In this document: positions 6,000 through 27,729 of the stretch, piece after piece
How the letters are laid out: each line of letters opens with the position of its first letter
Position numbering within the stretch: the stretch's first letter is position 1
The notes under the pieces: model-generated
What the model saw: the letters and a program-made list of their open reading frames with translations, nothing else
Databases searched by the model: none
Told to the model about the DNA's origin: nothing
Assembly (NCBI RefSeq): GCF_000217715.1
Contig: NC_015666.1
Coordinates: forward strand, 62,001 to 126,000
Length of the DNA: 64,000 bases
From: Halopiger xanaduensis SH-6
GTDB taxonomy: Archaea; Halobacteriota; Halobacteria; Halobacteriales; Natrialbaceae
Direction of reading: 5' to 3'
Made by a program: the position numbers and the translations under genes

Positions 6000-6476
6000 G
6001 TGAGCGTCAACATCGACAGTCGGGTCGTCACGCCGGGGAGTGACGACTACGTCGAGGATGCCTGGGAGCTCAAAGAGCGGATCAACGAGGAGGAGGGGGT
6101 GCTCAAACAGCGGCGCAAGTTCTTTACCGACGCGTATCGACGCTCGAAGGTCCACTGTTACGTTCAGGACGGCGATCTCATCGGCTTCGCGGCCGTTCGC
6201 CGCGACGGCTACATTCTCTTTCTGGCCGTCGATCCGGCCTACCGCGGCGAGGGGATCGGCAAGCGACTCGTCGCCCGCGTCGCCGAAGACCACGACACGA
6301 TCACCTGCCACGCGCGGACCAGCAACGAGAACGCCCTCCAGTTCTACGAACACCTCGGGTTCGAGATCAAACGCCGCATCGACGACTACTACGAGGACGG
6401 CGGCGACGCCTACTACCTGAAACTCGGCGCCGACGTCGGGATCACCGACCGCCTCTCCGATCTGATTCGTCGGTAA
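6000..6476 (+). CDS. GNAT family N-acetyltransferase
   Basis: A 158-residue single-domain acetyltransferase starting at GTG directly behind a TATA box. The acetyl-CoA motif A is V-D-P-A-Y-R-G-E-G-I-G-K-R-L-V (about residues 78-92), followed by N-E-N-A-L-Q-F-Y-E-H-L-G-F, the usual motif B of RimI-like enzymes. The substrate is not evident; RimI-like proteins modify ribosomal or other protein N-termini, but small-molecule acetylation is equally possible. It stands alone, convergent with the regulator gene at 6506. Confidence 0.88.
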   Translation: MSVNIDSRVVTPGSDDYVEDAWELKERINEEEGVLKQRRKFFTDAYRRSKVHCYVQDGDLIGFAAVRRDGYILFLAVDPAYRGEGIGKRLVARVAEDHDTITCHARTSNENALQFYEHLGFEIKRRIDDYYEDGGDAYYLKLGADVGITDRLSDLIRR

Positions 6477-6505: not shown

Positions 6506-7063
6506 TTACTCCTCGGATACGTCTGCGTCGACGGCACCGTCTCTCCGCACCGCTCCCGCAACAAACGCGCGTCGAAGCACCGTCAACAGGAGATACATCT
6601 CGTACTTCTGGGTCCGGCAGTGTTCGCAGGGTACCATCTCGTCGACGATTTCGTCGATCGTCTCGCCATAGTCGGCCTCGAGAGTCGCGACGAGGTCGGC
6701 CACGTCGGGAGCGAGCGCCGTCGCCATCTCCTCGACGTCCGCACGACGGCCCTCTGGAACGGCGTAGGATAACACGATCGTGTTCGCCCGGTAGTACTTC
6801 GTCGTCCCGCCGCCCTGCTCCTCGAGGCGCGCGATTTCGACGAGGCCGGCGTCGCGGAGTTCGTTGACGTGGTGGCGCACCGTGTTGCGCGTCCGGTCGT
6901 AGCCCCGCTCGGCGAGCGCTTCGTCGAGGTCCGCGACGGACCGCTCGCCCTCCGCGAGCATGTCGAGGAGCATCGCGCGAATCGGCTCGTCGACGGCGCT
7001 CGAGACGTTCGTGTCGCGGACGGCGATGTCCTCGATCGTCACGTCCGACGTGAATTCGGCCAT
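6506..7063 (-). CDS. Winged-helix regulator with C-E-H-C motif, probable metal sensor
   Basis: A 185-residue ArsR/MarR-like DNA-binding protein. Residues 25-95 form a winged helix (I-R-A-M-L-L-D-M-L-A, then R-N-T-V-R-H-H-V-N-E-L as recognition helix). After a helical segment, V-P-C-E-H-C-R at about 144-150 places Cys146, His148 and Cys149 close together, a plausible metal site. It is divergent from the metallochaperone/P-type ATPase genes and shares a 153-base intergenic region with them, so it probably controls that operon and perhaps itself. I chose M-A-E-F over an ATG seven codons earlier because a TATA box lies 23-29 bases upstream. Confidence 0.82.
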   Translation of the reverse strand: MAEFTSDVTIEDIAVRDTNVSSAVDEPIRAMLLDMLAEGERSVADLDEALAERGYDRTRNTVRHHVNELRDAGLVEIARLEEQGGGTTKYYRANTIVLSYAVPEGRRADVEEMATALAPDVADLVATLEADYGETIDEIVDEMVPCEHCRTQKYEMYLLLTVLRRAFVAGAVRRDGAVDADVSEE

Positions 7064-7085
7064 GGCGGCCGTTGGGCGCGGCACC

Positions 7086-7092
7086 GTATAAG
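7086..7092 (-). promoter_or_regulatory. TATA box of the C-E-H-C regulator gene
   Basis: Read on the minus strand this is 'cttatac', 23-29 bases before the ATG at 7063, as expected for a leaderless archaeal gene. It lies in the divergent regulatory region shared with the metal ATPase operon. Confidence 0.6.
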
Positions 7093-7173
7093 TCGATCAG
7101 ACCGCGCGACCGTCTAGACGAGTCGTTTCACCGGTTCGATCGCCTGTTTCACAACACAAACAAGTCATTTTAG

Positions 7174-7181
7174 TTATATAT
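7174..7181 (+). promoter_or_regulatory. TATA box of the metallochaperone/CPG-ATPase operon
   Basis: 'ttatatat' is the strongest AT-rich core in the region and lies 36-43 bases before the ATG at 7217, so a short leader of about 10-15 bases is likely. The surrounding 7149-7185 stretch is AT-rich and is the obvious place for the regulator to bind; no perfect palindrome is seen there. Confidence 0.65.
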
Positions 7182-7216
7182 TTGGGAGGGCGGGCCGTAG
7201 GACGACTCGAGTACCG

Positions 7217-7429
7217 ATGACCCAGATCGAATACCGCGTCACCGACTTCGACTGTCCGACCTGCGCGAGCAACGTCGAACGAGCGCTGACGAAAACCGAC
7301 GGCGTCGAGGACGCCGCGGTCCACTTCACGACCGGCCGCGTCGAGATCGAGTACGACGAGACGGCCGTCGACGCCGAGACGCTCGAGAACGCGATCACGA
7401 AGCAGGGGTACACGCCCCGGGTTCGGTGA
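7217..7429 (+). CDS. HMA-domain metallochaperone (CopZ-like)
   Basis: A single heavy-metal-associated domain of 70 residues. The metal loop is F-D-C-P-T-C-A-S (CxxC, Cys12 and Cys15), and the rest follows the ferredoxin-like HMA pattern (V-E-R-A-L ... G-V-E-D-A-A-V-H-F). Such proteins carry soft or transition metals to a P-type ATPase. The usual M/H before the first Cys is replaced by F-D, so Zn, Cd, Co or another divalent ion is as likely as Cu(I). The ATPase gene begins six bases after its stop, and that ATPase has no HMA domain of its own, so this protein probably supplies it. Confidence 0.9.
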   Translation: MTQIEYRVTDFDCPTCASNVERALTKTDGVEDAAVHFTTGRVEIEYDETAVDAETLENAITKQGYTPRVR

Positions 7430-7435
7430 CCGATC

Positions 7436-9334
7436 GTGAGCGTTAAGCGATACGTCCGAACCTATCGCAAACCGATTGTCGTCGCCGCCAGCGGCCTGTT
7501 GCTGGCGACCGGTTGGGCCGCGGGCACCTTCCACGACGTCCCGCGGCTGAGCGCGGCGCTGATGATCCTCGCCGCGGCAGTCGGCGGCTACGACGTCGCG
7601 AAGAAGGCCTACTACACGCTGCGCAGCGGCACCGTCGGCATCAACACGCTCGTCACCCTGTCCGCCGTCGGCGCGATCTACATCGGCGAGTACTGGGAGG
7701 CCGCCGCCGTCTTCTTCCTGTTCGCGCTGGGGAGCTACCTCGAGGCGCGGACGATGGGCAAGACCCGCTCGGCCCTCGAGGAGTTGCTCGAGATGACGCC
7801 CGATACGGCGATCGTCCGTCGTCACGGCGAAGAAGTGGAAGTGCCGGCCCGCGACGTCGAGGCCGGCGAGACGGTCGTCGTCAAGCCCGGCGCGAAGGTG
7901 CCCGTCGACGGCGAGGTCACGGACGGCGAGAGCGCGATCGACCAGTCGCCCGTCACCGGCGAGAGCGCCCCCGTCCACAAGGACGCCGGCGACGAGGTCT
8001 ACGCCGGGACGATCAACCAGGAGGGCGCCCTCGAGGTCGTCGCGACCGGCACCGGTCGGGACACCACGCTCGAGCGGATCATCCGCCGCGTCGAGGAGGC
8101 CCAGGAGGCGAAGGCGCCGACGGAGACCATCATCGAGCGCTTCGCGACGTACTACACGCCCGCGATCGTCGCGCTGGCGGCCGGCGCATACGCCGTCACC
8201 GGGGACGCCGTCATGGCCCTGACGCTGCTGGTCATCGGCTGCCCCGGCGCGCTGGTGATCGGCCCGCCGGTCAGCATCGTCAGCGCCATCGGCTCGGCGG
8301 CGCGCTCCGGCGTGCTCATGAAGGGCGGCGAACACCTCGAGACGGCCGGCAAGATCGACCTCGTCGCGTTCGACAAGACGGGGACGCTGACGAAGGGCGA
8401 GACGACCGTCGCGGACGTCGAGGGGTTCGGCGTCGACGACCGCGAGGTGCTGCGGACGGCGGCGATCGCGGAGAAACGAAGCGAGCACCACCTCGCGGAC
8501 GCGATCCTCGAGGCTGCTCGAGACCTCGGCGGCGAATCGAACGGGGCGTACGCGACCGACGGCGGCCTCGTGCTCGAGCGGCGGATTCCCGATCCCGACG
8601 AGTTCGAGGTCGTCCCCGGGAAAGGTGTCGTCGCTCGCCACGACGGTCGCGTGATCGTCGTCGGCAACCGGTCGCTGCTCGCGGAACGCGGCGTCGAACT
8701 CCCCGAGCAGGTCGCAGCGTACGCCCGAAAGCGCGAGGAGAACGGCGAAACTGCGGTCTACGTCGTCCGCGACGAGGAGGTCGTTGGCGTCGTCTCGCTC
8801 CGGGACGAACTCCGCGAGGACGCGGCCGACGTCGTCGCCGCGCTGCAGGACGCCGGCGTCCGCACGGTGATGCTGACCGGCGACAACGAGCGAACCGCTC
8901 GAGCGGTCGCAGAGACCGTCGGAATCGACGACTACCGCGCGGCGATGCTACCCGAGGAGAAACAGGACGCGATTCAGTCGTTCCAGGCGGCGGGGCACGT
9001 CGTCGCGATGGTCGGCGACGGCATCAACGACGCGCCGTCGCTCGCGACCGCCGACGTCGGCATCGCGATGGGCGCCGCCGGAACCGACACCGCCATCGAG
9101 ACGGCGGACGTGGCGCTGATGGCCGACGACCTGGGACGCATTCCCGACGCCGTCCGCCTCAGCAAGGCGACCCGCTGGAACGTCCTCGAGAACGTCGCGA
9201 TCGCGGTCGCGACGGTCGGCCTGCTACTGGCCGGCGTCTTCGCGGGCTACGTCCACATGGCCAGCGGCATGCTCGTCCACATCGGCAGCGTGTTGCTCGT
9301 CATCCTGAACGGCATGCGACTACTGCGATACTGA
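7436..9334 (+). CDS. P1B-type metal ATPase with CPG motif
   Basis: A 632-residue metal-transporting P-type ATPase starting at GTG. Actuator T-G-E-S is at 174-177, the phosphorylated Asp in D-K-T-G-T at 313, and G-D-G-I-N-D-A-P about 528. The membrane metal motif is C-P-G-A-L at 269-273, not CPC (Cu, Zn), SPC or TPC. The last helix has V-H-I-G-S at 614-618 before L-N-G-M-R-L-L, resembling the H-E-G-G-(T/E) of P1B-4 (Co/Fe/Zn-linked) pumps, and lacks the Asp of ZntA-type pumps. There is no N-terminal metal-binding domain; the chaperone is separate. The motifs leave metal specificity unknown. Confidence 0.92.
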   Translation: MSVKRYVRTYRKPIVVAASGLLLATGWAAGTFHDVPRLSAALMILAAAVGGYDVAKKAYYTLRSGTVGINTLVTLSAVGAIYIGEYWEAAAVFFLFALGSYLEARTMGKTRSALEELLEMTPDTAIVRRHGEEVEVPARDVEAGETVVVKPGAKVPVDGEVTDGESAIDQSPVTGESAPVHKDAGDEVYAGTINQEGALEVVATGTGRDTTLERIIRRVEEAQEAKAPTETIIERFATYYTPAIVALAAGAYAVTGDAVMALTLLVIGCPGALVIGPPVSIVSAIGSAARSGVLMKGGEHLETAGKIDLVAFDKTGTLTKGETTVADVEGFGVDDREVLRTAAIAEKRSEHHLADAILEAARDLGGESNGAYATDGGLVLERRIPDPDEFEVVPGKGVVARHDGRVIVVGNRSLLAERGVELPEQVAAYARKREENGETAVYVVRDEEVVGVVSLRDELREDAADVVAALQDAGVRTVMLTGDNERTARAVAETVGIDDYRAAMLPEEKQDAIQSFQAAGHVVAMVGDGINDAPSLATADVGIAMGAAGTDTAIETADVALMADDLGRIPDAVRLSKATRWNVLENVAIAVATVGLLLAGVFAGYVHMASGMLVHIGSVLLVILNGMRLLRY

Positions 9335-9340
9335 TCACCG

Positions 9341-9979
9341 ATGAGCGAATCCACCACTGAAACCGACCGAACGAACTGGACCGTCGACTACGACGTCGAA
9401 CCGATCCGACTACGCGATCCCGCCGCCGAGGCGCTGGCCGCCCTCGAGCCGGGCGACCCGATCGTCGTCGACTACCGGGACGTGGTGAAAGCCGCGGGCC
9501 ACTCCTGTCCCACCGCTGCGGGCGCCTACCGCATCGCGAAGGACGGCCTCGAGGCGCTCTACCCGGGCGACGAACTCCCCGTCCGCGGCGAGATCGCCGT
9601 GCTGGCTGGCGACCCGCGGGACGATTCCGCCTACGGCGTCACCGCGCGCCTGCTATCGTACATCACCGGCGCGGCCGGCGAGGACGGCTTCGGCGGCCTC
9701 GCCGACGGCCACGGCGGTCGGCGCAACCTGCTCCGGTACGGAGCGATCGGCGCCGACGGCGTCGCCGTCGAACTGACCCGTACCGATACCGACGAGACGG
9801 TCCGGGTCACCTACCACGTCGAGGACGTCCCCGCTGGCGGGCCCGCGACGAGCACCCTGCCGAAACTGATCGACGGGACCGCGACCGACGCGGAGCGAGC
9901 GGCCTTCGCCGACGACTGGCACGGCCGCGTCGCGGCGATCCTGAACGGGGATCGCTACGTGACGGTCGAACGCGACTGA
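9341..9979 (+). CDS. FmdE-like protein, metal-locus partner
   Basis: A 212-residue soluble protein beginning six bases after the ATPase stop, so certainly cotranscribed. Residues 45-65 read D-V-V-K-A-A-G-H-S-C-P-T-A-A-G-A-Y-R, like the G-H-x-C-P-G-x-x-x-G-x-R motif of the FmdE family (formylmethanofuran dehydrogenase subunit E-like), whose His and Cys can bind metal. Thr replaces the usual Gly after Cys-Pro, and no C-terminal zinc ribbon is present. A stretch near 120-130 (G-H-G-G-R-R-N-L-L) adds another His. A role in binding, sensing or delivering the pumped metal is inferred from context only. Confidence 0.78.
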   Translation: MSESTTETDRTNWTVDYDVEPIRLRDPAAEALAALEPGDPIVVDYRDVVKAAGHSCPTAAGAYRIAKDGLEALYPGDELPVRGEIAVLAGDPRDDSAYGVTARLLSYITGAAGEDGFGGLADGHGGRRNLLRYGAIGADGVAVELTRTDTDETVRVTYHVEDVPAGGPATSTLPKLIDGTATDAERAAFADDWHGRVAAILNGDRYVTVERD

Positions 9980-10162: not shown

Positions 10163-11338
10163 ATGGAGGAGCGAACGAGGGCCTACCTGCGGGGGCGATT
10201 CCGCGACCACTACCGGCGCACGGAGCTGACGCCGCCGCCCGCGGCCAACGAACGCGAGTGGGGGTACATCCCCTGGACCGAGGGACCCGACACGACGATG
10301 GTCCGCCACCGTTCGCTGCTCGAGTTAGGAGACCTCTCCGAGTTTCTCGTCCGGAAGCGCCCGCGCCACGTCTACTTCTCCGCGGGCCGGTTTCGCGACC
10401 CCGGCGCGAGTTCGATGCACGAGAAGGACTGGCAGTCGGCCGACCTCGTCTTCGACTTAGACGCCGACCACCTCCCGAACGTGACGCTGGGCGAGGACTC
10501 CTACGCGGAGATGCTCGCGAAGTGTAAGGACGCGCTGCTCCGATTGCTGGATTTCCTCGAGAACGACTTCGCCTTCCAAAACATGGAGATCGTCTTCTCG
10601 GGCGGCCGGGGCTATCACGTCCACGTCCGCGACGCGAACGTGCTCGAACTCGAGCGCGAGCACCGCCGCGAGATCGTCGACTACGTCCGTGGGATCGGAC
10701 TCGACTTCGAGGAACTGATCGAAACGGAGACCGTCGCCGGCCTCGGCCGGAAGACCCCCACGGAGCGCCGAATGCTCCAGATTCAGGGCGGCTGGGGCAA
10801 GCGCATTCACGCCCACTTCATGGACTTCGTCGACGACCTGCTGGCGATGGAGGAGGACGCGGCCCTCGAGCGACTGCAGGAGTTCGACGGCATCGGCGAG
10901 GGGAAAGCGCAGGCCACCCTCAACGCCGCGCGGAACAACCGCGAGGGCCTCGATTCGGGCAACGTTACCGTCCACACCGCGGTCGAGCAGTTAGCCCAGC
11001 GGTTCGCCGAGCGGGCCGTCGAGCGGGACAACGCGCCGATCGACGAACCCGTCACGACGGACACGAACCGACTCATCCGTCTTCCCGGCAGCCTCCACGG
11101 CGGCAGCGGCCTCAAGACCGTGCGCCTCGAGCGCGACGAGATCGCGGACTTCGAGCCGCTGGTCGACGCCGTCCCGGAGACCTTCACGGGCCAGGAGATC
11201 ACCGTCAACGTTACCGACGGGGGCGAGGTCGAACTCGGAGGAGATAGCTTTACAATCACGGACGGCAACCAGTCACTTCCGGAGTACGTTGCCGTCTTCC
11301 TGATGGCTCGCGGCAGGGCAGAAAAGGAGAAAGAATGA
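10163..11338 (+). CDS. priS: DNA primase small (catalytic) subunit PriS
   Basis: Archaeal/eukaryotic-type primase catalytic subunit, 391 residues, which makes primers at replication forks together with PriL (not in this window). The catalytic D-L-D pair (Asp98, Asp100) is in L-V-F-D-L-D-A-D-H, and the nucleotide-binding S-G-G-R-G-Y-H-V-H-V motif follows about 50 residues later. I took the ATG giving M-E-E-R-T-R-A-Y; the longer open frame upstream is arginine-rich and not conserved-looking. The stop overlaps the GINS gene start by four bases, so the two are translationally coupled. Confidence 0.94.
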   Translation: MEERTRAYLRGRFRDHYRRTELTPPPAANEREWGYIPWTEGPDTTMVRHRSLLELGDLSEFLVRKRPRHVYFSAGRFRDPGASSMHEKDWQSADLVFDLDADHLPNVTLGEDSYAEMLAKCKDALLRLLDFLENDFAFQNMEIVFSGGRGYHVHVRDANVLELEREHRREIVDYVRGIGLDFEELIETETVAGLGRKTPTERRMLQIQGGWGKRIHAHFMDFVDDLLAMEEDAALERLQEFDGIGEGKAQATLNAARNNREGLDSGNVTVHTAVEQLAQRFAERAVERDNAPIDEPVTTDTNRLIRLPGSLHGGSGLKTVRLERDEIADFEPLVDAVPETFTGQEITVNVTDGGEVELGGDSFTITDGNQSLPEYVAVFLMARGRAEKEKE

Positions 11339-22949: not shown

Positions 22950-23777
22950 ATGGACCCGTTCACACTCCTCGGCGTCGACGTCCTGCTGTTTCTCGTCATC
23001 GGGCTACTGGGCGGTGCCCACTGTATCGGGATGTGCGGCCCGCTCGTGACGGTCTACGCGAGTCGGATGGACGGCGCCGCGACCGACGGCGGGCAGCGCC
23101 ACCGCGACCGCGGCCGCGAGAGCCACCTCACGACCTACGAGGTTCGCCAGCACGCGCTGTTCAATCTCGGCCGCACGGCCAGCTACACGCTGCTCGGTGC
23201 GCTGTTCGGCGCGCTCGGAAGCGTCCTGTTCGTGACGACCGACGCGTTAACGCCCGTCCTCGAGACCGTCCGCGGCGGCGTCGGGCTCGTGATCGGCGGG
23301 TTCGTGATCGCGACCGGCGTCTACTACCTGCTCGGGCGTACGACCGGCGGCATCCAGCTTCCGGGCCTCGAGCGGGTCGTCTCGCGGCTCACCGCGCACG
23401 TCGATCGGCTCGCGAACGGACCCGGCATCGTCGGCCTGGGCGCGCTGCACGGCCTGTTGCCGTGTCCGATCCTCTACCCGGCGTTCCTGTACGCGTTCGC
23501 GACGGGGTCGCCGGCCGGCGGCGCGCTCGCGCTGGCCGCGCTCGGGATCGGGACGATTCCGGCCGTTTTCGCCTACGGGACCGTGATCGATGCCGTCGAC
23601 GTCGCCCACCGCCGGCGGGTCCACCGCCTCCTCGGGGTCGCCTTCGTCGTCCTGGGCTACGTCCTGCTGGCCCACGGGCTGATGAGCCTCGGGATCCACG
23701 TGCCCCACCCCGAGTTGCCGTTCTACGACGGCCTCGAGACGGCCGGCGCCGGCATGGAAGGGGGACACAACCACTGA
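22950..23777 (+). CDS. SafE/UreH-type membrane protein
   Basis: A 275-residue polytopic membrane protein with about six hydrophobic helices. The N-terminal G-G-A-H-C-I-G-M-C-G-P motif (residues 21-31) with His24, Cys25, Met28 and Cys29 is typical of the SafE/UreH-type TauE relatives found beside cytochrome-oxidase assembly genes. A second, repeat-related motif, L-H-G-L-L-P-C-P, starts the second half. The Cys/His/Met set suggests metal handling. A CcoI-like copper ATPase begins 36 bases after its stop, as in bacterial cco operons, so joint copper delivery is likely. Confidence 0.82.
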   Translation: MDPFTLLGVDVLLFLVIGLLGGAHCIGMCGPLVTVYASRMDGAATDGGQRHRDRGRESHLTTYEVRQHALFNLGRTASYTLLGALFGALGSVLFVTTDALTPVLETVRGGVGLVIGGFVIATGVYYLLGRTTGGIQLPGLERVVSRLTAHVDRLANGPGIVGLGALHGLLPCPILYPAFLYAFATGSPAGGALALAALGIGTIPAVFAYGTVIDAVDVAHRRRVHRLLGVAFVVLGYVLLAHGLMSLGIHVPHPELPFYDGLETAGAGMEGGHNH

Positions 23778-23813: not shown

Positions 23814-26318
23814 ATGACGGACGCAACGGTCGACGAACGGCAGTGTACGCTCTGCGATCTCCCCGTCGAGGGGAGCGACGTCACCGACGACGAGGGCAAC
23901 CGCTTCTGCTGCGTCGGCTGTCGCGACGTCTCCGACGCGCTCGGCGACGTCGACGAGGTCGACGCCGACGACGTCCGCAACGCGCGCGAGGACGACTCCG
24001 AGGACCGCGAACTCCCCGACGGCCACGAGGCCACCTACCTCGAGGTCGACGGCATGCACTGCGCGACCTGCGAGGCCTTCATCGAGTCGGTCGCCACGGA
24101 GACGGAGGGCGTCAGCGGCGCGAGCGCGAGCTACGTCACCGACACGGTCCGGATCGACCACGATCCCGACAGCGTCTCGCAGGACGACCTCGCGGCGGCG
24201 ATCAGCGGGCTGGGCTACAGCGCCTACGACCGCGACGACGCCTTCAGCCGCCGGCAGGCGGACAACTGGGAGATGGCCCGAGTCGGCGTCGGCGTGCTCA
24301 TGGGGATGATGGTGATGCTCCAGTACGTCGTCATCATCTACCCCACCTACTTCGGCGCGTGGTTCTACGACGAGCGGACGATGGAGTTCTTCCAGGAGAC
24401 GCTGGCGAGCGACCTCGCGACGCCCTTTTACCTGATGATCGCCGCGCTGACGACGATCATCCTCGGGGTCACCGGCAAACCGATCCTGCAGGGCGCGTAC
24501 GTCAGCGCCAAGACCCGGTCGCCGAACATGGACCTGCTCGTCGCGATCGCAGCCGTCAGCGCCTACCTGTACAGCACGCTCTCGATCGCGGTCGGCGGCG
24601 AACACATCTACTACGACGTCACCGTCGCGATCATCGTCATCGTCTCCGTGGGCAACTACTACGAGTCGACGATCAAGCGCGAGGCCACCGAGCGGCTCTC
24701 GAACCTGACGAGCGTCCAAGTGGACTCGGCGCGGCGCGTCGGCGAGGACGGGAGCCACGAGGACGTCGCGCTCGAGGAGCTCTCGGCGAGCGACCGCGTG
24801 CTGGTCCGTGCCGGCGAGCGGATCCCGGTCGACGGCGCGGTCGTCGAGGGCGAGGCCGCGGTCGACGAGGCGGTCGTCACCGGCGAGTCCCTGCCCGTGA
24901 CCAAGGACGCAGGTGACGCCGTCGTCGGCGGTTCGATGGTCGCCGACGGCGCGGTGACGGTCGAAGTCGGCGAGGACGCGACCAGCAGCCTCGATCGCAT
25001 CACCGAACTCGTCTGGGACCTCCAGAGCGGGACCCACGGTATCCAGAAGCTCGCGGACAAGCTGGCGACGATCTTCGTCCCGGTCGTCCTCGCGCTCGCG
25101 GTCGTCGTCACGGTCGCCCGTCTCGCCCTCGGCGCGCCGATCGAGGGCGCGCTGCTGACCGGCTTGACGGTGCTGATCGTCTCCTGTCCCTGCGCGCTCG
25201 GGCTCGCGACGCCGCTGGCCGTCGCCGCCGGCATCCGCGACGCCTTGGAGCGCTCGATCGTCGTCTTCGACGACAGCGTCTTCGAGCGCATCCGCACCGC
25301 CGATACCGTCGTCTTCGACAAGACCGGCACGCTGACGACCGGCGATATGACCGTCGTCGAGGCCGACACCGACGTCGACGCCGATCTGCTCGGGCGGGCG
25401 GCGATCCTCGAGGGCCGCTCGGCGCATCCGGTTGGGCAAGCGATCGCGGCGATGGCGGGGGGCTCGAGCGGCGACGGCGCTGATACCGGCTCCGGGACCG
25501 TGGCGGACGGCGGGACGGTCGAGACGGCTGGTGCCGAGACTAGCGTCGCTACGGACGACGCCGGCGAAACCGGCGACGGCCGCCTCGAGTCCTTCGAGAG
25601 CTACCGAAACGGCGTCGCGGGCGTCGTCGACGGCGAGGAGATCGTCGTCGGCCACCCGGACCTGTTCCGCGACCGCGGCTGGGACGTGCCCGAAGCAGTC
25701 GCGAAGCAGGTCGAGGCCCACCGCGAAACCGGCCGCGTGCCGGTCGCCGTCGGCCGCGACGGAACTGCGGCGGGCGTCATCGTCGTCGGCGACGAACTCC
25801 GCGAGGAGTGGGGCGAGACGGTGACGGCGATCGCCGACAGCGGCGCCGAGGTCGTCGTTCTCACCGGCGACGACGCGAAGGCGGCGGACCGATTCCGCGA
25901 GCACGGGGCCGTCGATCGGGTGTTCGCCGGCGTCCCGCCGGAGGGGAAGGCCGAGACCGTCGAGCGGCTCAAGGGAACCGGCCGGACGGTCATGATCGGC
26001 GACGGAACCAACGACGCGCCGGCGCTGGCGGCCGCCGATCTGGGCATCGCGCTCGGCGGCGGGACCGCAATGGCCGCCGACGCGGCCGACGTCGCGCTGG
26101 TCGACGACGACCTCTCGTCGGTCGACACCGTCTTCGACCTCGCCCGCGCGACCGACCGGCGCGTGAAGGGCAACATCGGCTGGGCGTTCTGTTACAACGC
26201 CGTCGCGATCCCGTTGGCCGTGACCGGCCTGCTCAACCCGCTGTTCGCCGCCGTCGCGATGGGGACCAGCAGCCTGCTGGTCGTCACCAACTCCTCGCGC
26301 TCGCTGCTCGAGGACTAA
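23814..26318 (+). CDS. CcoI/FixI-like Cu P-type ATPase
   Basis: An 834-residue P1B ATPase. The N-terminal cysteine-rich domain (Cys11, Cys14, Cys32, Cys33, Cys36) matches the metal-binding domain typical of CcoI/FixI, followed by an HMA domain with G-M-H-C-A-T-C (Cys83, Cys86). The membrane motif is S-C-P-C-A-L, the phosphorylation site D-K-T-G-T-L-T, and the hinge G-D-G-T-N-D-A-P, with T in place of the usual I. CPC pumps move Cu(I); CcoI proteins export copper for haem-copper oxidase assembly. The loop after the phosphorylation site contains a low-complexity stretch (S-G-D-G-A-D-T-G-S-G). Confidence 0.93.
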   Translation: MTDATVDERQCTLCDLPVEGSDVTDDEGNRFCCVGCRDVSDALGDVDEVDADDVRNAREDDSEDRELPDGHEATYLEVDGMHCATCEAFIESVATETEGVSGASASYVTDTVRIDHDPDSVSQDDLAAAISGLGYSAYDRDDAFSRRQADNWEMARVGVGVLMGMMVMLQYVVIIYPTYFGAWFYDERTMEFFQETLASDLATPFYLMIAALTTIILGVTGKPILQGAYVSAKTRSPNMDLLVAIAAVSAYLYSTLSIAVGGEHIYYDVTVAIIVIVSVGNYYESTIKREATERLSNLTSVQVDSARRVGEDGSHEDVALEELSASDRVLVRAGERIPVDGAVVEGEAAVDEAVVTGESLPVTKDAGDAVVGGSMVADGAVTVEVGEDATSSLDRITELVWDLQSGTHGIQKLADKLATIFVPVVLALAVVVTVARLALGAPIEGALLTGLTVLIVSCPCALGLATPLAVAAGIRDALERSIVVFDDSVFERIRTADTVVFDKTGTLTTGDMTVVEADTDVDADLLGRAAILEGRSAHPVGQAIAAMAGGSSGDGADTGSGTVADGGTVETAGAETSVATDDAGETGDGRLESFESYRNGVAGVVDGEEIVVGHPDLFRDRGWDVPEAVAKQVEAHRETGRVPVAVGRDGTAAGVIVVGDELREEWGETVTAIADSGAEVVVLTGDDAKAADRFREHGAVDRVFAGVPPEGKAETVERLKGTGRTVMIGDGTNDAPALAAADLGIALGGGTAMAADAADVALVDDDLSSVDTVFDLARATDRRVKGNIGWAFCYNAVAIPLAVTGLLNPLFAAVAMGTSSLLVVTNSSRSLLED

Positions 26319-26415
26319 CCGCGGTCGGTGGCTCGATTCCGCTCCGGGCCGTGCAGACGTTCAGCATTCGAAATATTTCAGTGGCCTAATACCACGTGGC
26401 TTCGTACCGGTGGGT

Positions 26416-27729
26416 ATGGCTGCGTCCGACCCCGACCTGCCCTCCGATACAACGTCGAGGGCGGCCGGATCCGACTCGTGGTTCACCGACCGAACCGGAC
26501 TGACCGTCCTCGCCGTCGTGAGCGCACTCCTCGGCCTGTTCGTCGTCCTCCCCTACCTCCAGTACGTCCTGCTCGGGGTCGTGCTCGCGTACGTTCTCAT
26601 GCCCGCCCAGCGGCGACTCGAGACCTACGTCCGGCCGATAACCGCGGCGCTCGTCCTCGTCGCCGTCGCGATCCTCACGATCATCCTACCGCTGTCGTAC
26701 GTCCTCGCGGTCGCGCTGCGCGAGGCGCTCAACATTCTGGACGCCGTCGAAGGGGGCGACCTCAACGTCGGGGCGATCGAATCCCGCCTCGAGTCCAACG
26801 GGTACGCGGTCGACCTCACCGAGATGTACCAGGCCTATCAGGAGCCGATCGAGACGGGGCTACAGGGACTCGCCACGAGCGGGATCGAACTCGTCAGCGG
26901 CGTGCCCGGTCTCCTGATCGGACTGACGGTGACGCTGTTCGTCCTCTTCGCCCTGCTGCGCGACGGGGGTGCACTCGTCGCGTGGTTCCACCGTATCCTC
27001 CCGATCGAAGACGATATTCTGGACGAACTGCAGGCGGAGATCGACCAGCTCATGTGGGCCTCCGTCGTCGGGAACGTCGCCGTCGCGGGCATTCAGGCGG
27101 TGATGCTCGGGGTCGGGCTGGTGCTCCTCGACGTGCCCGCCGTCGTCTTCCTGACGGTCGCAACGTTCGTTCTCGCCCTGCTGCCGCTGGTCGGCGCGTT
27201 CGGCGTCTGGGTCCCCGTCGCCGTCTACCTGATCGCGGTCGGGCAGTTCGTCCCCGCCGCAATCCTCGTCGCGTACGGCTCGCTGGTCAGCGCCTCGGAC
27301 ACGTACCTGCGACCGGCGCTCATCGGCCGGACGAGCGCTTTCAACTCCGCGATCATCGTCGTCGGGATCTTCGGCGGCATCGTCGTCTTCGGCGGCGTCG
27401 GCCTGTTCATCGGTCCCGTCGTGCTCGGCGGCGCGAAGATCACGCTCGACGTGTTCGCCCGCGAACGGACCGGCGGCGAGTCGCTCGAGACCGAGACGGC
27501 GGACCGAGCGGCCGATCCGGCCGTCGACACGTCCGACGCCGGCGTCAGTACGGGACTCGATCCGGAGACCGACTCGAGCGACGCTGGTGCGGACGACGAG
27601 CACGGCGGTACCGGTAGCGACGACGGTGCCGATACCGGCGGTACCGACGAACGCGACGATACTGGGGCTGACGGTCGAACCGACGGCGACGCGGACGATG
27701 ACGCGGCCGACGAGCGTTCGGACCCGTAA
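26416..27729 (+). CDS. AI-2E family permease-like protein
   Basis: A 437-residue membrane protein of the AI-2E transporter (PerM/UPF0118) family, with about eight hydrophobic helices: two to three at 20-95, a soluble stretch 100-175, and a block of five from 215 to 355 including the family-like L-G-V-G-L-V-L-L-D-V-P. The last 80 residues are a D-, T- and G-rich acidic tail. Family members are linked to quorum-signal or ion export, but the substrate here is unknown. I preferred the M-A-A-S-D-P start over a GTG two codons earlier because 'aaatattt' at 26371-26378 gives normal TATA spacing to it. Confidence 0.85.
   Translation: MAASDPDLPSDTTSRAAGSDSWFTDRTGLTVLAVVSALLGLFVVLPYLQYVLLGVVLAYVLMPAQRRLETYVRPITAALVLVAVAILTIILPLSYVLAVALREALNILDAVEGGDLNVGAIESRLESNGYAVDLTEMYQAYQEPIETGLQGLATSGIELVSGVPGLLIGLTVTLFVLFALLRDGGALVAWFHRILPIEDDILDELQAEIDQLMWASVVGNVAVAGIQAVMLGVGLVLLDVPAVVFLTVATFVLALLPLVGAFGVWVPVAVYLIAVGQFVPAAILVAYGSLVSASDTYLRPALIGRTSAFNSAIIVVGIFGGIVVFGGVGLFIGPVVLGGAKITLDVFARERTGGESLETETADRAADPAVDTSDAGVSTGLDPETDSSDAGADDEHGGTGSDDGADTGGTDERDDTGADGRTDGDADDDAADERSDP

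Follow-up and report, generated by a model that had tools for sequence, protein, structure and literature searches.

An FmdE-like protein linked to a metallochaperone and a CPG-type P1B ATPase in a conserved haloarchaeal cassette

A locus of Halopiger xanaduensis SH-6 encodes a divergent ArsR-type regulator, a small HMA chaperone, a P1B ATPase and an FmdE-like protein. Its gene content, linkage and order are conserved among haloarchaea, its proteins are co-inherited, and it carries a conserved intergenic site, characteristic pump and chaperone motifs, and a third gene product with the FmdE fold. Our best reading is that the cassette is of the known chaperone-plus-P1B-pump kind, with a new FmdE-like partner and an unusual CPG pump. 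We consider it fairly probable that the cassette is a mobile divalent-metal efflux module in which the FmdE-like protein is an accessory. In the proposed mechanism, the regulator would respond to metal and bind the conserved 21-bp site that lies between the two divergent promoters; the chaperone, to judge from its family, would take up an ion at D-C-P-T-C and pass it to the ATPase, and the ATPase by the same reasoning would export it. The metal would belong to the Zn/Cd/Co/Ni/Fe(II) class and would not be Cu(I). The FmdE-like protein would be cytosolic, its His54 and Cys56 buffering, receiving or acting on the pump's metal, whether as such or bound to a thiol, and may improve the pump without being strictly required.

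A four-gene locus and its conservation

All four open reading frames are present and intact within positions 6506-9979 of the window, by which we mean the whole 64,000-nt stretch analyzed (NC_015666.1, 62,001 to 126,000), whose numbering is used throughout (Table 1). A sequence-only reading had described regulator, chaperone, P1B ATPase and FmdE-like protein as one unit. This description is borne out: the genes are intact, and because the regulator / chaperone-ATPase-FmdE order recurs across many haloarchaeal families, the locus is not a chance arrangement. The range given for the unit, 7064-9979, holds the operon genes but leaves the regulator (6506-7063) outside; we place the regulator start at the ATG at 7063 because homologues begin M(A/P)EFTSDV. 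The reported six-base spacings are correct, both inner operon gaps (chaperone-ATPase and ATPase-FmdE-like) being exactly 6 bp. Calling cotranscription certain was too strong, because the ATPase-FmdE gap varies among relatives, from -4 to about 92 bp; their chaperone-ATPase gap is mostly 4-14 bp.

Table 1 Features of the cassette and its flanks (positions in the window)
Feature	Position	Strand	Basis
ArsR-type winged-helix regulator, 185 aa	6506..7063	-	HTH_20, HTH_5; PH1932 (1uly) match; start by homologue alignment
Operator-like site CTAGACGAGTCGTTTCACCGG between divergent genes	7114..7134	+	Conserved in cassettes
Putative TATA-like promoter element of operon	7169..7183	+	Sequence; A/T-rich block, same place in relatives
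HMA metallochaperone, 70 aa, invariant D-C-P-(S/T)-C	7217..7429	+	Pfam HMA
P1B ATPase, 632 aa, GTG start, no HMA domain	7436..9334	+	E1-E2_ATPase and Hydrolase
FmdE-like protein, 212 aa, AGHSCP motif (His54, Cys56)	9341..9979	+	FmdE profile, fold
GNAT acetyltransferase, flanking, outside unit, insertion-site marker	6000..6476	+	
DNA primase small subunit PriS, flanking, outside unit, insertion-site marker	10163..11338	+	

Among Halobacteria, the FmdE-like protein was found in 92 of 391 genomes and the ATPase in 87 of 382 (E<=1e-170). The gene order, which the sequence-only reading had proposed to look for in other haloarchaea, is conserved there, the opposite of what that reading had named as its refutation: a cassette-type FmdE gene lies directly downstream of the ATPase, on the same strand, in 99 of 102 ATPase copies (joined tables, about 380 genomes), and this linkage ties a member of the FmdE family to a testable process. 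The two genes occur together in 84 genomes, with three genomes carrying the ATPase alone and three FmdE alone. Such mismatches mostly reflect contig ends, genomes present in one search only and decayed copies. In two genomes that have the ATPase without FmdE (G335, G196) the contig ends inside the ATPase; G386 is absent from the genomes listed with a match in the ATPase search and holds the full cassette (L045), G053 has a broken ATPase upstream of FmdE, and G275 has an extra FmdE gene lacking a pump, besides a normal cassette. A real exception is the complete genome G362, whose locus L204 keeps regulator, chaperone and ATPase without FmdE, and this counts against the module reading. The order of divergent regulator, chaperone, ATPase and FmdE was found, with few exceptions, in 40 fetched loci; of 80 named loci, nearly all that are of the cassette type show it as well. 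Protein distances of ATPase and FmdE are congruent (Mantel r 0.92, 46 loci; none of 2000 permutations as high), with r of 0.85-0.89 for the other cassette protein pairs. Genes that travel in one linked block would be expected to agree in this way, and the result speaks for co-inheritance and not for function.

The cassette is also gained, lost and damaged together, as seen from empty sites, a remnant, joint decay and plasmid copies. In the window's family it sits between the GNAT gene and priS/GINS. Two loci lacking it (L214, L215) have GNAT-priS spacings of about 203 and 276 bp, and a third (L216) retains a C-terminal regulator remnant alone at this site. L074 has a truncated pump, a chaperone short of one Cys and an FmdE gene broken across reading frames. 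Elsewhere the cassette is carried on plasmids, in metal-resistance islands, beside genes for copper ATPases, plastocyanin, DoxX, a permease and integrases. Haloarcula marismortui is one carrier (pNG600, RR_RS01525-RS01510). Inheritance, movement and loss as one block suggest that the FmdE-like protein takes part in metal export. The same mobility could mean that FmdE is a hitch-hiker sharing no function with the pump, since most copies are plasmid-borne, several are nearly identical across families, and L204 kept the pump and lost FmdE. We regard this as very unlikely, given that FmdE persists at 70-82% identity, with H54 and C56 invariant, in vertically inherited chromosomal copies of the window's family, and that FmdE decays or disappears together with the pump.

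At one further locus (L055, 6274-7336) the regulator and an FmdE-like gene stand head to head, with chaperone and pump missing; it is probably a deletion derivative.

The CPG pump, its chaperone and the class of metal

The ATPase scores 572.1 bits against TIGR01525 (heavy-metal P-type ATPase; cut-off 346.25) and has the catalytic DKTGT. That it bears a CPG motif and lacks an HMA domain of its own, as had been read from the sequence, was confirmed by Pfam and by inspection of the sequence. The M4 motif CPGALVIGPPVS, which contains the CPG, is invariant in every cassette ATPase examined, and the protein ends in a C-terminal GMLVHIGSVLLVILNGMRLLRY. In M6 the window has VHIGSV and most relatives VHE(A/G)SV, with the His kept. 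At residue 616 (9281-9283) the window's family has Ile where the VHE(A/G)SV motif has Glu; this natural variant falls at a position with a proposed role in ion binding and release in P1B-4 pumps.

The defining motifs of P1B-4 pumps are SPC (M4) and HEGxT (M6), and their metal range is broad (PMC8880997). The P1B-4 pump sCoaT (7qbz) is the best solved-structure match of the cassette ATPase, which resembles this class in lacking an HMA domain and in having a His at the M6 HEGxT position, but has CPG in place of SPC and HIGSV (HE(A/G)SV in relatives) in place of HEGST. The NCBIfam score is 507.7 bits for the Cd family (cut-off 313.5) versus 411.8 for the Cu family (cut-off 397). In the P1B tree the pump clade falls on the divalent side, away from the CPC-ALGLATP copper pumps. 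With long branches and a small set of references, the tree places the CPG group only approximately. The chaperone matches Pfam HMA (52.3 bits), with CopZ models below cut-off, and carries F-D-C-P-T-C, in contrast to the M-x-C-x-x-C of CopZ-type copper chaperones. We favor the divalent class because of the sCoaT match, the place in the tree, the Cd-family score and the DCxxC chaperone.

We find it improbable that the module is a second copper system exporting Cu(I). The CxxC of the chaperone, the broad range of P1B-4 pumps (PMC8880997) and the proximity of plasmid copies to genes for CopA, HMA and plastocyanin point that way, and the plasmid-borne copper neighbors, which would also fit a copper role, weigh to that extent against export of divalent metal. 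However, the pump has neither CPC nor the TM motifs of copper pumps and is placed apart from the CopA-type paralogues, which the genome possesses itself, and the chaperone has D-C-P-T-C instead of the copper-type motif. Seven other P1B pumps, copper types among them, are encoded in the genome. The window holds a second P1B ATPase (23814-26318), which is of copper type, with CPC and an HMA domain, and adjoins a DsbD_2-like gene at 22950-23777 and, at 26410-27729, a gene for an AI-2E family transporter.

The chaperone-pump pair had been taken as a known piece, and a small HMA chaperone beside a P1B ATPase does support this. CopZ/CopA-type and ZntA-type operons share that arrangement and a divergent metal-type regulator; the cassette differs from them by its HMA-less CPG pump, its DCPTC chaperone and its FmdE-like third gene. 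The well-studied Halobacterium copper genes (PMC3551603) comprise a different pump/chaperone set, set apart here by description only.

CPG pumps with a separate HMA chaperone also occur in bacteria, in Microbacterium (L169), Enterococcus (L170), Rhizobium (L171) and Paracoccus (L168). All four fall in the group of the cassette pumps, and those of the first three join them with SH-aLRT 99. This CPG group of P1B pumps, spanning archaea and bacteria, stands outside the SPC and CPC motif classes considered here; our literature searches, which covered papers available without subscription, found nothing on a CPG motif in such pumps. The bacterial loci differ from the cassette in having no FmdE gene, a Crp/Fnr or LysR regulator where annotated, and cupin, DUF924-like, Dps or Cd genes as neighbors. 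FmdE as a universal partner of CPG pumps was accordingly rejected, the third genes being different in bacterial CPG operons; the 220-aa gene of the Rhizobium operon is not related to FmdE by sequence. The bacterial pumps presumably work without FmdE, which argues against the module reading. The Enterococcus faecalis locus lies on a plasmid that carries, besides CPG pump, HMA chaperone, Crp/Fnr regulator and Dps, cadmium genes and optrA.

The regulator and a conserved intergenic site

Both HTH_20 (42.5 bits) and HTH_5 (26.8 bits) pass for the regulator, with a score against the ArsR/SmtB metalloregulator model NF033788 (NCBIfam) of 30.8 bits, below the cut-off of 55. By sequence it matches PH1932 (1uly; E 2.7e-11), which is also the best Foldseek match of its predicted model. 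It shares with PH1932-type ArsR regulators a winged helix followed by long helices, and differs from them by a P-C-x-H-C motif. The Cys-Glu-His-Cys motif reported for the regulator holds in the window; in relatives the Glu varies, and the motif is therefore better written C-x-H-C. In the homologue alignment, P-C-x-H-C...Q-K-Y-E is invariant in the C-terminal helical part, and the regulator would probably sense metal through P-C-x-H-C. We claim no geometry for C-x-H-C because the predicted model is weak (pTM 0.54).

The intergenic site CTAGACGAGTCGTTTCACCGG has one match in the 4.36-Mb genome at <=3 mismatches. It occurs within 5 mismatches in 46 of 48 distinct cassette intergenic regions, versus 2 of 960 shuffles, and at a near-fixed distance of about 77-102 bp from the chaperone start. 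It is likely the operator of the divergent regulator itself. Lying upstream of the putative TATA-like block, it could serve an activator or a shared repressor. With four genes, a single operator-like site and a clear class of phenotype, the cassette lends itself to testing.

The FmdE-like protein and its relatives

The FmdE family takes its name from operons of methanogens, and to our knowledge its function is not settled. The cassette protein scores 22.0 bits against Pfam FmdE (PF02663), just under the cut-off of 22.9, and 11 of 14 of its relatives match this profile at E<=0.01 (best 2.3e-7). At E<=0.001 its predicted model (pLDDT 83) finds no structures other than those of FmdE proteins (2gvi, 2glz, 3d00), with TM-scores of 0.37-0.58. 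A profile search extended, with weak hits, to further archaea within the phylum, and cassette homologues in relatives are annotated 'hypothetical protein'. A role in formylmethanofuran dehydrogenase was rejected, as there are no such genes beside the cassette and a single FmdE match in the genome. A literature search covering papers outside subscription found no paper linking FmdE to a P-type ATPase operon.

Solved FmdE proteins hold metal on His-x-His-x-Cys and a second Cys, and in one of them a thioester-like ligand was seen on a conserved Cys (PMC2954224). The cassette protein shares the fold and the GHxCP motif of the family but lacks two of the four NTD ligands and the C-terminal zinc finger, differences that tell against the module reading. 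Only His54 and Cys56 are kept of the canonical four, the first His being Ala52, so that the pair may form a two-ligand site, contribute to a site that two subunits of a dimer share, or supply a catalytic Cys. Both residues are present in 119 of 119 homologues, and 54 of 63 cassette FmdE-like proteins have a single Cys. R82, G116-F117-x-G119, R127 and W193 are likewise invariant, while the bacterial proteins shown lack His194.

In the FmdE tree the cassette proteins form one clade (support 100), with a second haloarchaeal clade as sister (99) and bacteria outside. The closest relatives outside the cassette occur without this pump in their denitrification/NO and hemerythrin neighborhoods, and these settings bear on a rather unlikely alternative: the FmdE-like protein would be a thiol enzyme or an Fe-S/NO-stress protein with a catalytic Cys56 and His54, the cassette would guard against metal freed by nitrosative or sulfur stress, and the pump would export Fe(II) or thiol-bound metal. 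Haloarchaeal relatives beside NosL/ABC, DUF2249, CopD-like and TusA-like genes, bacterial relatives beside hemerythrin/DUF438, Rrf2, Crp/Fnr, DUF2249 and FeS_assembly_P genes, and anammox and denitrifier-type hosts are in keeping with it, as are the resemblance of the invariant residues to an active site, the E. faecalis CPG pump next to Crp/Fnr and Dps, and the thioester-like ligand of a solved FmdE (PMC2954224). On the other hand, the cassette of the window, like most others, has no denitrification gene next to it, plasmid copies are found in a metal-resistance context, and the neighbor families are varied.

A broader idea, which we hold as speculative, is that AGHSCP-type FmdE-like proteins are a distinct thiol- or metal-handling family common to metal-export and denitrification/NO modules, and that the cassette member works as obligate partner to P1B pumps of a new CPG class. 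If true, it would perform a transfer or repair step that no metal export system is known to have.

The second haloarchaeal clade (about 45% identity; L056, L062, L063, L064, L066, L079, L129) is set in CopD-like / TusA-like / FmdE operons near DUF2249; in L056, where NosL and an ABC-2 permease are close by, the setting is of denitrification type. Two Pfam-less membrane proteins near FmdE-like relatives are, in our reading, NnrS-like. Bacterial genes adjoining hemerythrin/DUF438, Rrf2, Crp/Fnr, DUF2249 or FeS-assembly genes were seen in Omnitrophota (L114, L118, L122, L127, L133, L135) and Campylobacterota (L124, L142-L144, L156). In anammox loci (L119, L137, L151-L159) the FmdE-like gene stands beside other conserved genes of unknown role, and in about 11 deltaproteobacterial loci (in L112-L141) it is directly followed by a probable fructose-1,6-bisphosphatase gene.
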